Shown in pieces: positions 10,087 through 34,108 of a DNA stretch of 34,902 nt (its first letter is position 1; the number at the start of each line of letters is the position of its first letter). Source of the DNA: Candidatus Zambryskibacteria bacterium RIFCSPLOWO2_01_FULL_39_39 (GTDB taxonomy: Bacteria; Patescibacteriota; Minisyncoccia; Phycocordibacterales; WO2-35-19). The notes beneath the pieces were generated by a model. That model saw only the letters and a program-made list of their open reading frames with translations. It ran no database searches and had not been told where the DNA came from. Made by a program: the position numbers and the translations under genes. The stretch is from the NCBI GenBank assembly GCA_001823925.1, contig MHWB01000003.1, positions 23,022-57,923 of the forward strand, read 5' to 3'.

Positions 10087-12402
10087 ATGACTACTCAAAC
10101 GTATAGGATAAAAGGAATGCACTGCGCCTCTTGCGCCACTATTATTGAAAAGACTTTCAAAAAAGTTCCAGGAGTACATCTAGCAGAGGTTAATTATGGG
10201 ACAGAAAAAGTAAAATTAAATATTGATGAAACTAAAACAAGTCCAGAGAATCTCTCCAAAAAAATAGAACCGCTTGGATATTCTCTTGTGACTCAAAATG
10301 CGGAGAGTATGGGAATGAACGAAGATGAACATGCGGCCCATCTGGGACTTAATCGATCAAAAAAAGAAAAGTTGGCTGAACTCGCAGAAATGAAAAGTAA
10401 AGTAATATCAGCAATACCTCTAGCCGTGTTTAGTATTTTTGTAATGGTGTGGGAAATTGGCGCTAAGTTTAATCTATTTTTAGAGATACCTTATTTCTGG
10501 GAAGAATTTTTTCATCATCTTTCTCCAATAATGGCTGCATATATGTTGTTTGTTGTTGGTAGGCCATATCTTTTGGGTTTCTACCGTTTCTTGCGTTATG
10601 GAAAGGCAAATATGGATACTCTGATTGGTATAGGTACCCTGACGGCATTTTTGTATAGCTTTACCATTACTGCTTTTGAAGAAACCTTAAAACCTTTTAT
10701 TAATGTTGAGCAAAGTTATTACGAGGTTACTATTATTGTTATTGCCTTTATCTCTCTCGGAAAATATTTAGAAACTAGATCAAAATTAAAAACCGGAGAC
10801 GCGATTGAAAAACTCTTAAATCTGCAAGCCAAGACGGCTCTGGTTGAGAGGGATGGAAAAGAGCTAGAAGTGCCCATAGGTGAAGTTGTTCACGGAGATC
10901 TGATTATTGTAAAACCGGGTAGCTCTATTCCTGTTGATGGCGTAATTACCGAAGGTGCTTCCTTTGTAGATGAATCAATGATCTCTGGCGAGCCGATGCC
11001 TGTTTCAAAAAAGATAGGAGATAGCGTGGTAGCGGGGACAATAAACACCAGTGGCTCTTTTACTTTCAGGGTGACCAAGGTTGGCTCGGAAACTTTACTT
11101 GCCAAAATAATAAAAATGGTAGAAGACGCCCAAGGAAGTAAAGCGCCGATTCAGGCTTTGGCAGATAAAATTTCGGGTGTTTTTGTGCCCATTGTTTTAG
11201 TACTTTCTTTTGTCTCTTTAGGATTGTGGCTCTTGGTTGGGACAGGGTATTTGGGGTTTTCGCAAGCGCTTTCGTTTGGTCTGGTTTCTTTTGTGGGCAT
11301 CTTGGTGATTGCTTGTCCTTGTGCTTTGGGGCTGGCTACTCCTACAGCTATCATTGTTGGGGTTGGTAAAGGCGCACGCGAGGGGATCTTGATTAAAGAT
11401 GCCGGCACGCTTGAAAAACTTCACAAAGTAAATGTGGTAGTGGTTGATAAAACGGGCACGCTTACTTATGGAAAACCCGAGCTTGTATCAATTCAAAATT
11501 TTTCGCAAGGTCAGACCTTGGGAATTTTAGAAAGGTCTGACCTTGAACTTGTCGCCATTCTTGCTTCGCTTGAAAATAAATCAGAACATCCGATAGCTCA
11601 CGCTATTGTCTCTAGTGCAAAGGGGAAAAATATAAACCTCTTTTCTGTTCAAACTTTTGAAGCAATTAAAGGTAAGGGGGTTAAGGGCACTATTCTAAAT
11701 GTAGAATATTATGCAGGCAATACCAAACTTATAAAAGATTTAAATATTCCTTTTTATACAACATCAATTGAGAAGGAAACAATGGAAGGGAAAACTCCTG
11801 TTATTCTAGCTATCAGAGAGAGGGTACTTGGGGTGGTGATGGTTGCTGACGCTGTAAAGCCAGAAGCTATAGAAGCGGTCAAAAATCTCCACAAACTCGG
11901 CATAAAAGTAGTAATGCTAACCGGGGACAATAAAAATACGGCCGAATTTATTGCAAAGCAGGTTGGTATAGACGAAGTGGTTGCTGAAGTAATGCCAGAA
12001 GATAAACTAAATAAAATAAAAGAATTACAAGCAGAAGGTAAGATTGTGGCTATGGCGGGTGATGGGGTAAATGATGCGCCAGCCTTGGCGGGTGCCGATG
12101 TTGGGATTGCGATGGCTACAGGGACGGATGTGGCGATTGAATCGGCCGGTATCACGCTCCTTCATGGCGATATTTCAAAACTTGTAAAGGCTATAAAACT
12201 TTCAAAAATCACCATGACTGGAATAAAGCAAAATCTTTTCTGGGCGTTCTTTTATAATGTGGTAGGCATACCTTTAGCTGGCGGACTGTTTTATCCAATT
12301 TTTGGTATTCTTCTTTCGCCAGTTTTTGCTGGTTTTGCGATGGCCATGTCTTCGGTATCTGTGGTTGGAAATTCCCTTCGCTTAAAAACTAAAAAGTTGT
12401 AA
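10087..12402 (+). CDS. copA: Copper-translocating P1B-type ATPase with one HMA domain
   Basis: GMHCASC, CPCALGLATPTAI, DKTGTLT, GDGVNDAPALA motifs. Confidence 0.97.
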   Translation: MTTQTYRIKGMHCASCATIIEKTFKKVPGVHLAEVNYGTEKVKLNIDETKTSPENLSKKIEPLGYSLVTQNAESMGMNEDEHAAHLGLNRSKKEKLAELAEMKSKVISAIPLAVFSIFVMVWEIGAKFNLFLEIPYFWEEFFHHLSPIMAAYMLFVVGRPYLLGFYRFLRYGKANMDTLIGIGTLTAFLYSFTITAFEETLKPFINVEQSYYEVTIIVIAFISLGKYLETRSKLKTGDAIEKLLNLQAKTALVERDGKELEVPIGEVVHGDLIIVKPGSSIPVDGVITEGASFVDESMISGEPMPVSKKIGDSVVAGTINTSGSFTFRVTKVGSETLLAKIIKMVEDAQGSKAPIQALADKISGVFVPIVLVLSFVSLGLWLLVGTGYLGFSQALSFGLVSFVGILVIACPCALGLATPTAIIVGVGKGAREGILIKDAGTLEKLHKVNVVVVDKTGTLTYGKPELVSIQNFSQGQTLGILERSDLELVAILASLENKSEHPIAHAIVSSAKGKNINLFSVQTFEAIKGKGVKGTILNVEYYAGNTKLIKDLNIPFYTTSIEKETMEGKTPVILAIRERVLGVVMVADAVKPEAIEAVKNLHKLGIKVVMLTGDNKNTAEFIAKQVGIDEVVAEVMPEDKLNKIKELQAEGKIVAMAGDGVNDAPALAGADVGIAMATGTDVAIESAGITLLHGDISKLVKAIKLSKITMTGIKQNLFWAFFYNVVGIPLAGGLFYPIFGILLSPVFAGFAMAMSSVSVVGNSLRLKTKKL
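11506..11545. repeat. In-frame palindromic element inside copA
   Basis: CAAGGTCAGACCTT(11506-11519) / AAGGTCTGACCTTG(11532-11545), perfect; each arm is itself near-palindromic. Confidence 0.9.
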
Positions 12403-23030: not shown

Positions 23031-23897
23031 ATGATTTTACACGGGTTTCCTGTCAAGGAGAAAATAAAAGAAGTATTGATAGAAAGGATAAAAAAGCTTG
23101 AAAAGAAGTCATTTTTGGCGATTGTTCAAGTGGGAGATAGAGCTGACTCAAACGTTTATGTGAGACAAAAGCAAAAATTTGGAGAAGAAATAGGGGTGAA
23201 AGTTTTAATAAATAAATTTGATGTAGACATAAAAGAAGAAGATTTAACTAGGGAAATTAAAAAATTAAATGAAGATGAAAGTGTAAATGGTATTATTGTG
23301 CAACTGCCTTTACCCAAACACATTGATACGGAGAAAATAATAAATTTAATTTCAATACAGAAAGATGTAGACGGGTTAGTGTCAAGGACGACCCTTAAAC
23401 TGCCCCAGTCCCAAAGGGTTGTCCTTGACACTATTTCCGCCACTGCTCGCGGAGTTTTGGCTCTGCTTGATTATTACGAAATCACAGTTAAAGATAAAAA
23501 GGTAGCGGTGATAGGTCAGGGTATTTTGGCAGGCAAACCAATAGCTCTGGAGTTAGAAAAGAGGGGGGCAGAAGTTTTTAGGTGTGATGTAGATACCCCA
23601 AATATTTCGGAGATCACAAAGGGGTGCGATATTTTAATTTCGGCAGTTGGTAAAGCGGGGCTAATAACAAAAGAGTTTGTAAATCCTAAACAAGTAGTTA
23701 TTGATGTTGGTATAAATAAAATAACGCCCCCTAACCCCCTCTTACTTCAAGAGGGGGAACAAAAATCAAAAATAGTGGGAGATGTAAATTTTGAAGAGGT
23801 TTCTCCTATTGTTTCCTCCATTACTCCAGTACCTGGCGGCATCGGCCCTCTTACGGTCGCTTGCCTCTTTGAAAACCTCCTTGATTTATGTGAGTGA
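23031..23897 (+). CDS. folD: Methylenetetrahydrofolate dehydrogenase/cyclohydrolase, divergent, carrying two repeat-derived segments
   Basis: VQVGDRADSNVYVRQK, GIIVQLPLPKHID, KDVDGL, GDVNFEEV, TPVPGGIGPLTVACLFEN. Confidence 0.93.
   Translation: MILHGFPVKEKIKEVLIERIKKLEKKSFLAIVQVGDRADSNVYVRQKQKFGEEIGVKVLINKFDVDIKEEDLTREIKKLNEDESVNGIIVQLPLPKHIDTEKIINLISIQKDVDGLVSRTTLKLPQSQRVVLDTISATARGVLALLDYYEITVKDKKVAVIGQGILAGKPIALELEKRGAEVFRCDVDTPNISEITKGCDILISAVGKAGLITKEFVNPKQVVIDVGINKITPPNPLLLQEGEQKSKIVGDVNFEEVSPIVSSITPVPGGIGPLTVACLFENLLDLCE
23377..23433. repeat. In-frame palindromic element inside folD
   Basis: TAGTGTCAAGGACGACCCTT(23377-23396) / AAGGGTTGTCCTTGACACTA(23414-23433), 19/20 complementary, remaining pair G-U. 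Confidence 0.92.
23726..23760. repeat. In-frame CCCCTAACCCCCTC-type hairpin repeat inside folD
   Basis: CCCCCTCTT(23735-23743)-ACTTC-AAGAGGGGG(23749-23757). Confidence 0.8.
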
Positions 23898-32157: not shown

Positions 32158-32421
32158 ATGGCCTTTATTTCTAGGCACAAAAAATTTACCAGACAGTTTA
32201 ATCATCTTCCAAAGAAAATTAAGGAAAAGTTTGAGGAAAAATTGAGAATTTTTATTATAAATAATTATACGTTAGAATTAAATAATCATTCCCTCTATGG
32301 CGAATGGTTTAATCATAGAAGCATAGATATAACAGGGGATGTAAGAGCAGTTTTTAAAGAAGAGGGAGATTTTATAATTTTTAAAGCAATCGGCACACAC
32401 CATCAACTTTATGGAAAATAA
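32158..32421 (+). CDS. YafQ/RelE-family toxin (mRNA interferase)
   Basis: 87 aa; ...HSLYGEWFNHRSIDITGDVRAVFKEEGDFIIFKAIGTHHQLYGK. Confidence 0.85.
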   Translation: MAFISRHKKFTRQFNHLPKKIKEKFEEKLRIFIINNYTLELNNHSLYGEWFNHRSIDITGDVRAVFKEEGDFIIFKAIGTHHQLYGK

Positions 32422-32422
32422 A

Positions 32423-34108
32423 ATGAATATTCAAGAAAAAATAAAAGATTGGATTGAAGAAACTTTAAAAATAGAGGAAAGTTTTGTGTTGGCTCACCCC
32501 AAAGATATTAAAAATGGCGACTACTCTTTTTTTGCTTCTCCAAAACTTGCGAATGAATTCGGCCGAGCCTTAAGTGAAAACAAAATTCCTGAAATCGAAA
32601 AAGTAGAGGTAGTTGGCAGTTTTATAAACTTTTATTTATCCAAAAAATTTTTTACCGAATCCATCAAAGAAATTTTAGAGAAAGGAGAGGAATGTGGACA
32701 AACAGATTTACTTGAGGGCCAGAAGATAATAATTGAACACACCCAACCAAATCCTTTTAAAGAATTCCACATTGGTCACCTGATGAACAATGCTATTGGC
32801 GAATCGGTGGCGAGGATTATTAAAGCAAACGGAGCAGATGTCAAAACCGCTAGTTATCATGGTGACAAGGGTTTACACGTCGCTAAAGCGGTTTGGGCAA
32901 TGAATAAGGGTATTGAGTATGAAAAGGCGTATGCGTACGGAAATAAAGCCTATGAAGAAGACGAAAATACCAAACAAGAAATAATTGCTCTAAATAAAAC
33001 TATATATGATGGCAAGATCACTGAAATATGGAAAATTTGTAACGATGGCTTTAATAAGTTTAAAAATTATTTTTTGACTATATGTAGGAGATTGGATACT
33101 ACTTTTGATTATCAATTCTGGGAAACTGCTTCTGGAGAAGTCGGAAAGAAAATAGTCTTGGAAAATGTGGGCAAAATTTTTGAAAATGGAGAAGGGGGAG
33201 CGGTGATTTTTAAAGGGGAAAATTTTGAGCCTAAAACCCATACTCGGGTTTTTATAAATTCTGAAGGTCTACCAACCTACGAAGCCAAAGAGGTTGGGTT
33301 AGCAAAAATTAAAAAAGAACTTTTTGCTTATAATCAATCAATTACTGTAACCGGGAATGAGCAAGACAGTTTTTTTGATGTGACAGAAATAGCTATTGGT
33401 GAAGTTTTGCCAGAACTCAAAGGTAAACTCAAACATCTTTCTCATGGCATGCTCCGATTACCGACAGGCAAAATGTCTTCAAGAACGGGGGATGTTATCA
33501 CCACTGAATCTCTCATTGATCAAGTCAAAGAAAAAGTTAGAGAGAAAATTGCAGAGCGAAATTTGAGTGAAGAAGAAAAAGAGGAAATTTTAGAAGTGGT
33601 GGCGATCGGGGCTATAAAGTATTCAATACTAAGACAAGCAATCGGGGGTGATATTATTTTTGATTTTGATAAATCAATTTCTTTTGAGGGAGACTCCGGA
33701 CCATATTTGCAATATGCGTGTGTGCGCGCCAATTCAATCTTGGAAAAAGCAGACATGTCAAGGTTGAACCTTGACATGTCAGAGGCGGTCTTTGACACTT
33801 GGGAGACGACGGAGTTGGAAAAGTATTTGTATAGATTTACGGAGGTTGTGGAAAGAGCTGGTACCCATTCGACAGGTTCGATAAACTCACTGCAGGCAGG
33901 CTCAGGGCAGGTAGAGTATGCGCCACATCATATTGTCACTTATCTCACCGAGCTGGCTTCCATCTTCAATAGCTTTTATGCAAAAGAAAAAATAATAGAC
34001 CCGTCTGATGGAGCTTCTCCTTACAAGATCGCTCTTACCCAAGCAGTCGCTTACACTCTTAAATCAGGTCTCCGTCTCCTCGGTATCAAAGTGCCAGACA
34101 AGATGTAG
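32423..34108 (+). CDS. argS: Arginyl-tRNA synthetase
   Basis: EHTQPNPFKEFHIGHLMNNAIGESVARI, GDKGLHVAKAVWA, KMSSRTGDVIT; start 32411 also possible. Confidence 0.96.
   Translation: MNIQEKIKDWIEETLKIEESFVLAHPKDIKNGDYSFFASPKLANEFGRALSENKIPEIEKVEVVGSFINFYLSKKFFTESIKEILEKGEECGQTDLLEGQKIIIEHTQPNPFKEFHIGHLMNNAIGESVARIIKANGADVKTASYHGDKGLHVAKAVWAMNKGIEYEKAYAYGNKAYEEDENTKQEIIALNKTIYDGKITEIWKICNDGFNKFKNYFLTICRRLDTTFDYQFWETASGEVGKKIVLENVGKIFENGEGGAVIFKGENFEPKTHTRVFINSEGLPTYEAKEVGLAKIKKELFAYNQSITVTGNEQDSFFDVTEIAIGEVLPELKGKLKHLSHGMLRLPTGKMSSRTGDVITTESLIDQVKEKVREKIAERNLSEEEKEEILEVVAIGAIKYSILRQAIGGDIIFDFDKSISFEGDSGPYLQYACVRANSILEKADMSRLNLDMSEAVFDTWETTELEKYLYRFTEVVERAGTHSTGSINSLQAGSGQVEYAPHHIVTYLTELASIFNSFYAKEKIIDPSDGASPYKIALTQAVAYTLKSGLRLLGIKVPDKM
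33752..33780. repeat. In-frame palindromic element inside argS
   Basis: GACATGTCAAGGTT-G-AACCTTGACATGTC, perfect 14-bp arms. Confidence 0.95.
33866..33912. repeat. Second repeat-like in-frame segment in argS
   Basis: cattcgacaggttcgataaactcactgcaggcaggctcagggcagg, encoding HSTGSINSLQAGSGQ between VERAG and EYAPHHI. Confidence 0.6.

Follow-up and report, generated by a model that had tools for sequence, protein, structure and literature searches.

Palindromes read in frame in core genes of a Candidatus Zambryskibacteria bacterium form a REP-like family and may be moved by a RAYT transposase

How does the folD gene of a reduced CPR genome come to contain a long palindrome within its reading frame, and is it the DNA hairpin or the encoded peptide that is kept there? 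The window, i.e. the whole stretch of DNA that was analysed (34,902 nucleotides, G000:C3:23022-57923), belongs to a Candidatus Zambryskibacteria genome of 800 kb in 13 contigs. A preliminary description, made from the window alone, had noted the palindrome in folD and likened it to the protein-coding palindromic elements (RPEs) of Rickettsia; its supposition of a CPR genome was right. Quite probably, the palindrome in folD is one member of a family of non-autonomous, REP-like elements that a cognate RAYT (REP-associated tyrosine transposase) mobilises and that core proteins tolerate in their loops.

The folD palindrome and its insertion site

The features of the gene are as follows.

23031..23897, + strand: folD ORF of 288 aa with two palindromic inserts, the sole FolD match in the genome
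23377..23396, + strand: left arm of the long element, TAGTGTCAAGGACGACCCTT (inverted-repeat arms)
23397..23413, + strand: 17-nt loop AAACTGCCCCAGTCCCA, conserved among the copies (consensus RAANTGCCYCRGTCCCA, copy alignment)
23414..23433, + strand: right arm of the long element, AAGGGTTGTCCTTGACACTA (inverted-repeat arms)
23735..23757, + strand: second palindrome, CCCCCTCTT-ACTTC-AAGAGGGGG, inside the extra residues ITPPNPLLLQEGEQKSK

The FolD motifs Y-x3-K, QLP and KDVDG are all still present, and no second FolD was found in a search of the genome. The arms of the long element are 20 nt long and form 19 Watson-Crick pairs and one G·T, just as had been described; the element is in frame, and codons 23376-23435 are read as LVSRTTLKLPQSQRVVLDTI. 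The folding energy of the palindrome gave z = -8.4 (DNA) and -9.4 (RNA) relative to dinucleotide shuffles, and an ungapped inverted-repeat scan of 275 kb of the genome returned 35 repeats with a score of at least 13 as compared to 1 in a first-order shuffled control. The folD palindrome is therefore beyond what chance would give.

The preliminary description proposed an alignment of FolD proteins as a check, and the segment is indeed not conserved in other FolDs. The congeners have VDGLVSGSGIIPATAR (12 residues shorter) or ADGLSTTKSVNSDNIITPATAR (6 residues shorter) at this site; the loop comprises 21 residues here, 9 in the nearest congener and 18-19 in distant FolDs, and solved FolD structures align here with gaps of 2-3 residues. 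As judged from these alignments, the element sits in a length-variable loop, part of which it probably replaced. Since the length of the loop varies (18-19 residues in distant FolDs vs 21), the folD site does not provide a clean insertion. A single-sequence AlphaFold model of FolD had a mean pLDDT of 32, which is too low for placing the insert in the fold.

The second folD palindrome is unrelated to the first and represents another family, of which the genome has 4 copies. The residues ITPPNPLLLQEGEQKSK that surround it are missing from both congeners that possess folD. One copy of this family lies in an mnmA-like ORF (C9:64204).

A dispersed family with filled and empty sites

Several of the hairpins found in the 275-kb scan have the 17-nt loop RAANTGCCYCRGTCCCA in common while their arms are different yet complementary, and others have a 14-nt loop, GAAGAAATTTCCAA, likewise with different but complementary arms. 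The core TGTCAAGG...CCTTGACA is common to the folD element and to the argS element (33756-33776), as had been stated earlier. TGTCAAGGTTNAACCTTGACA, exactly or with one base changed, occurs nine times in the genome and 0 times in the reversed-pattern control. A covariance (structure) model was then built from ten long copies and used for searching the 800-kb genome at E up to 1, which resulted in 39 places; among them are copies of the short form TGTCAAGGTTNAACCTTGACA and variants with compensated changes, e.g. TGTCAAAGGGCGCCTTTGACA. In other words, the genome search suggested in the preliminary description brought up many further copies. The elements range from 21 to 60 bp and come in two forms, a long one with arms of about 17-22 bp and a conserved loop of 14-17 nt, and a short one that consists of TGTCAAGGTTNAACCTTGACA and its compensated variants.

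According to an ORF reading, 21 of the 39 places are in frame in recognisable genes. There are two places each in dus, rsmA, topA and a cysteine desulfurase gene, and one each in folD, priA, recG, ligA, tatD, an MBL-fold gene, a copper-type ATPase gene, miaA, argS, valS, leuS, rnr and uvrC. With the C1 RAYT gene, whose element-encoded C terminus is outside the 21 places, the 17 named genes make 18 recognisable ones. The host genes were named from sequence motifs and alignments; family libraries were used for FolD and the RAYTs only. Besides folD, the window contains the following members.

33752..33780, + strand: short element GACATGTCAAGGTTGAACCTTGACATGTC in argS (ORF 32411-34108), encoding DMSRLNLDMS (covariance model)
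11506..11545, + strand: CAAGGTCAGACCTT-12 nt-AAGGTCTGACCTTG in the copper-type ATPase gene (ORF 10087-12402), encoding QGQTLGILERSDLE; a weak match of 23 bits
6059..6112 (C3:29080-29133), + strand: element of the long family between ORFs, with no convincing gene (covariance model, 35.8 bits)

Because we take the coding density of the genome to be about 90%, the genic share of 21/39 is below the expectation for random landing, which would fit a purging of most copies that land in coding sequence.

Orthologous stretches from seven congeners were collected with one chimeric query, aligned and then read as DNA. The recG element is present in G000, G005 and G007 and absent from G001, G002, G003 and G006; the filled sites carry ISQGRTLNCPSPKGPTLAW-like residues and the empty ones KTDKNK-WTKISK or similar. 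At the first dus site G000 and G005 have different elements, and G001, G002, G003 and G006 have none. The first topA site has a long element in G000 only, with other palindromes in G005 and G004, and mbl and further genes likewise have sites that lack the element in congeners. The empty sites are cleanest in recG and dus, recG being the clearest case. Single gain and repeated insertion are not separable by the tree, since the deep nodes of the concatenated tree of the eight congeners are weak (41-56).

Another in-gene insert, of about 90 nt and with KCTDIFLLxNSC...ESASQGI-like peptides, was seen in rsmA of G004 (L272) and in dus of G006 (L271), where it occupies the same permissive sites as the palindromes.

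RAYT genes and their flanking palindromes

The genome has four Y1_Tnp genes, with PF01797 above the cut-off. The C1 RAYT has ATGTCAAGGTTcAACCTTGACAT at both ends, and its final codons, MSRLNLDI, are the palindrome itself; the C2 RAYT has palindromes of the TGTCAAAGG..CCTTTGACA type on both sides. The PNHFHLL motif is present in the RAYT sequence. The sole NCBIfam match of these two RAYTs is REP_Tyr_transpos (NF047646), with 65 and 72 bits, i.e. below the 80-bit cut-off, and a phmmer search of the RAYT against PDB returned nothing at 0.001. Taken by its motifs, the product qualifies as a RAYT-family transposase with HUH and a putative catalytic Tyr. RAYTs of other Parcubacteria have these palindromes as flanks too. 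The RAYT flanks consist of the short form only, and the long form is tied to the RAYTs via the common outer arms TGTCAA..TTGACA.

The two remaining RAYTs have palindromes of their own: ATTCCAAGG..CCTTGGAAT on both sides of the C11 gene (L060) and TACTAAACGCTCAGCGT.. upstream of the C4 gene (L061).

Exact matches to the palindrome were found in 93 stretches of the public genome collection, nearly all from Patescibacteria, the others being from a Bathymodiolus symbiont and one Tissierellia contig. A RAYT is present at 22 of the 94 exact-palindrome sites examined. Where exact copies are paired 650-800 bp apart a RAYT lies between them in 7/7 cases; a single wider pair, at L090 (1,025 bp), encloses no RAYT. 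A further 33 of the 94 sites are in ORFs of at least 150 aa, among them LigA, UvrC, ArgRS, LeuRS, Dus and RsmA, mostly in the xSR(L/F)NLDx frame; this frame bias is largely forced because the other frames have stops. In the thiotrophic gill symbiont of Bathymodiolus heckerae the identical 21-bp palindrome occurs three times around a RAYT (L076:5011-5759). These copies suggest an exchange between distant phyla.

Many other RAYTs of the same order have their own, different flanking palindromes. In G019 the palindrome that flanks the genome's own RAYT, TATCGAGGTTNAACCTCGATA, occurs in 34 exact copies, several of which possess outer arms (up to 8 bp) whose bases vary but still pair. Since the G019 copies look mostly extragenic (15 loci, L340-L354), the in-gene habit is not general to RAYT palindromes.

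In 59 other genomes the number of element matches correlated with the similarity of the RAYT to that of C1 (Spearman 0.48, p = 1e-4), and 20/39 genomes with a RAYT possess elements as compared to 2/20 without one (odds ratio 9.5, p = 0.002), both values being inflated by shared ancestry. There are congeners that depart from this tendency: both G001 and G003 have a RAYT, a close one in the case of G001, and yet few elements. It is the flanking position together with this correlation that suggests a cognate relation between RAYT and element.

We propose that the RAYT, an HUH/Y1 single-strand transposase, would recognise the hairpin in single-stranded DNA in the way TnpA_REP does, and would copy or paste it to new places. 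Most copies landing in coding sequence would be purged, presumably being harmful, and those surviving would be the copies that leave the reading frame intact, are free of stop codons in the frame in which they are read and fall in a variable loop; the host would translate them as about 8-20 extra residues. The maintained unit would be the DNA hairpin, not the peptide.

What is maintained, and how the family compares with known systems

The conservation of the hairpin was assessed on the 21-pair stem of the ten long copies, in which 93% of the cells pair. It is conspicuous that 16 of the 21 stem pairs have changed on both sides, and covariation was 0.638 as compared to 0.221 in shuffles (0/500). 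RNA-level selection usually leaves more G-U intermediates, and here a one-sided standard change, e.g. G-C to G-U, was seen in 1 of 210 cells. Because cells of this kind are so rare, we infer that what is kept up is a DNA palindrome and not an RNA structure.

The peptides point in the same direction. One DNA element is read as VSRTTLKLPQSQRVVLDT in folD, as LPRTVLWDRGSLRTVLG in priA (on the other strand) and as SQGRTLNCPSPKGPTLAW in recG, and the readings across genes are VSR..VLDT, LPRTVL.. or SQGxTL... Since three frames of one DNA element yield peptides without resemblance to each other, selection on the encoded peptide is unlikely, and the idea of a functional peptide was rejected on this ground. 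The encoded peptide would rather be neutral, with the palindromes presumably in surface loops of the host proteins.

At sites shared between species the arms vary in sequence yet for the most part stay complementary, with 29 two-sided changes, 23 one-sided and 4 broken. The flank bases outside the 21-bp core are variable yet paired, 81/103 at the first position vs 33 expected. This paired variation at shared sites may be due to replacement, repeated insertion or template-switch correction; replacement of a stem-loop is known for IS1272 (PMC5678879). The peptides at the uvrC site differ by species (VSKGAFDT / VSRFNLDI / VSRLNLDT), and the rsmA site has the short form in one species and the long form in another. 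Occupied sites might even be in motion, with RAYT or template switching continually exchanging or correcting the palindrome in place and so changing the cassette peptide from species to species, which we regard as a tentative and rather doubtful extension. If true, a transposase-driven system would be continually rewriting internal peptides of core proteins.

The same paired variation (81/103 vs 33) and the compensated changes at one site in different species could also be explained without mobility, by in-place template switching in a variable loop, through which imperfect inverted repeats become perfect ones. As the only origin of the family this was rejected and is very improbable, given that unrelated genes share the same 21-bp core and 17-nt loop, and distant phyla the core, which in-place formation cannot give; template switching may act after insertion. 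A regulatory RNA hairpin or a selected FolD peptide is just as hard to credit: the predicted RNA hairpin of the folD element is strong (-41.5 kcal/mol, with the z-score given above), but no Rfam family matched at the element, congener FolDs lack it, and the same element is found intergenically as well as in unrelated genes, where it is read in three different frames. The draft state of the genome, with its 13 contigs, raises the thought of an assembly or binning artefact, the chance of which is negligible as the same elements occur in frame at orthologous sites of independently assembled genomes from different studies.

The most serious competitor, in our opinion still an unlikely one, is that the palindromes are mobile by other machinery, as in the Rickettsia RPEs, and that RAYT genes are merely frequent insertion places or share a target preference. 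G001 and G003, with RAYTs yet few elements, could be read in this way, as could the CGTC repeats including RPE-4/6, which lack a transposase partner (PMC3733652). On the other hand, RAYT genes of many genera have the same palindrome on either side, and the palindromes differ between different RAYTs, a pattern that is hard to obtain by chance insertion. We therefore keep to movement by the RAYT as the preferred reading.

REPs, which are palindromic and 20-50 nt in length, are found mostly between genes, usually have a GTAG head and are likely mobilised by TnpA_REP/RAYT (PMC8266576, PMC2817692); REP-rich genomes usually have at least 100 copies (PMC2817692). The present family is like the REPtrons (PMC2817692, PMC3733652, PMC6006769, PMC8266576) in that short genome-wide palindromes flank a Y1/HUH RAYT gene. 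Intragenic REPs, including Rickettsia RPE-4/6 and inserts in repair genes, have also been described (PMC3733652), and here too some copies are inside ORFs and DNA-repair genes are among the hosts. The copies are many and dispersed, although 39 places are fewer than usual in REP-rich genomes. The differences are that there is no conserved GTAG/GT[AG]G head, none of the flank positions 1-8 having a fixed base across 103 sites; that 21/39 places are in recognisable genes whereas REPs are mostly extragenic; that a long stem-loop form, the loop of which is conserved, exists besides the short one; and that the host is a CPR bacterium with a reduced genome. Because the GTAG feature and the extragenic habit fail, we name the element REP-like instead of a REP, and by this comparison its closest kind would be an intragenic REP with a RAYT.

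The likeness to RPEs (Ogata 2000, 2002, as cited in PMC6649704, PMC10969869 and PMC3733652) stands as a functional analogy: both are in-frame palindromes in many unrelated, apparently functional genes of a reduced genome. It does not extend to size, tag or enzyme. RPEs measure about 150 bp (PMC10969869) or, in the case of RPE-4/6, are REP-like, carry a CGTC tag and belong to a class without an associated transposase (PMC3733652); the elements here, set apart by description, have 21-60 bp, no fixed tag and a RAYT attached. RPEs are also reported to lose repeat identity over time, whereas the arms here stay complementary.

TIRtrons/TIRYT (PMC3733652) and the TnpA_Y1 of subclass 2.6 with atypical hairpins (PMC6006769) share RAYT-like genes, repeat flanks that are in part self-complementary and the lack of GTAG, and the accessible parts of both sources hold no description of them inside CPR protein genes. 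In Nematomorpha mitochondria, coding hairpins with complementary arms are gained and lost between species and template switching has been proposed; unlike the present elements these reach 284 bp, are mitochondrial and, in the accessible text, have no link to a transposase (PMC6649704). No report of RAYTs or of such palindromes in CPR was found in the open-access literature. Suyama and co-workers reportedly described, in 2005, palindromic repeats with coding potential in Methanocaldococcus jannaschii, i.e. in an archaeon.

Knowledge of coding palindromes in Rickettsia goes back to 2000, and the 2013 survey found no transposase for the RPE-related class (PMC3733652). What is added here is a coding-palindrome family with a candidate enzyme, with element copies at the ends of the enzyme gene, with empty sites in congeners and with mostly essential enzymes as hosts, which opens the family to tests of whether it moves, how it chooses its targets and what it costs the host protein. 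A stretch of selfish DNA that a REP-type transposase has apparently dispersed is translated by the cell within its essential enzymes. We note as a warning that unusual inserts in CPR core proteins, including phylogenetic markers such as aminoacyl-tRNA synthetases, can be mobile DNA and not lineage signatures.

Elsewhere in the window, a perfect 19-bp inverted repeat, AACAAAAAACCGCCGCGTC / GACGCGGCGGTTTTTTGTT, lies at 2430-2468 directly after an ORF ending at 2428 and is probably a terminator.
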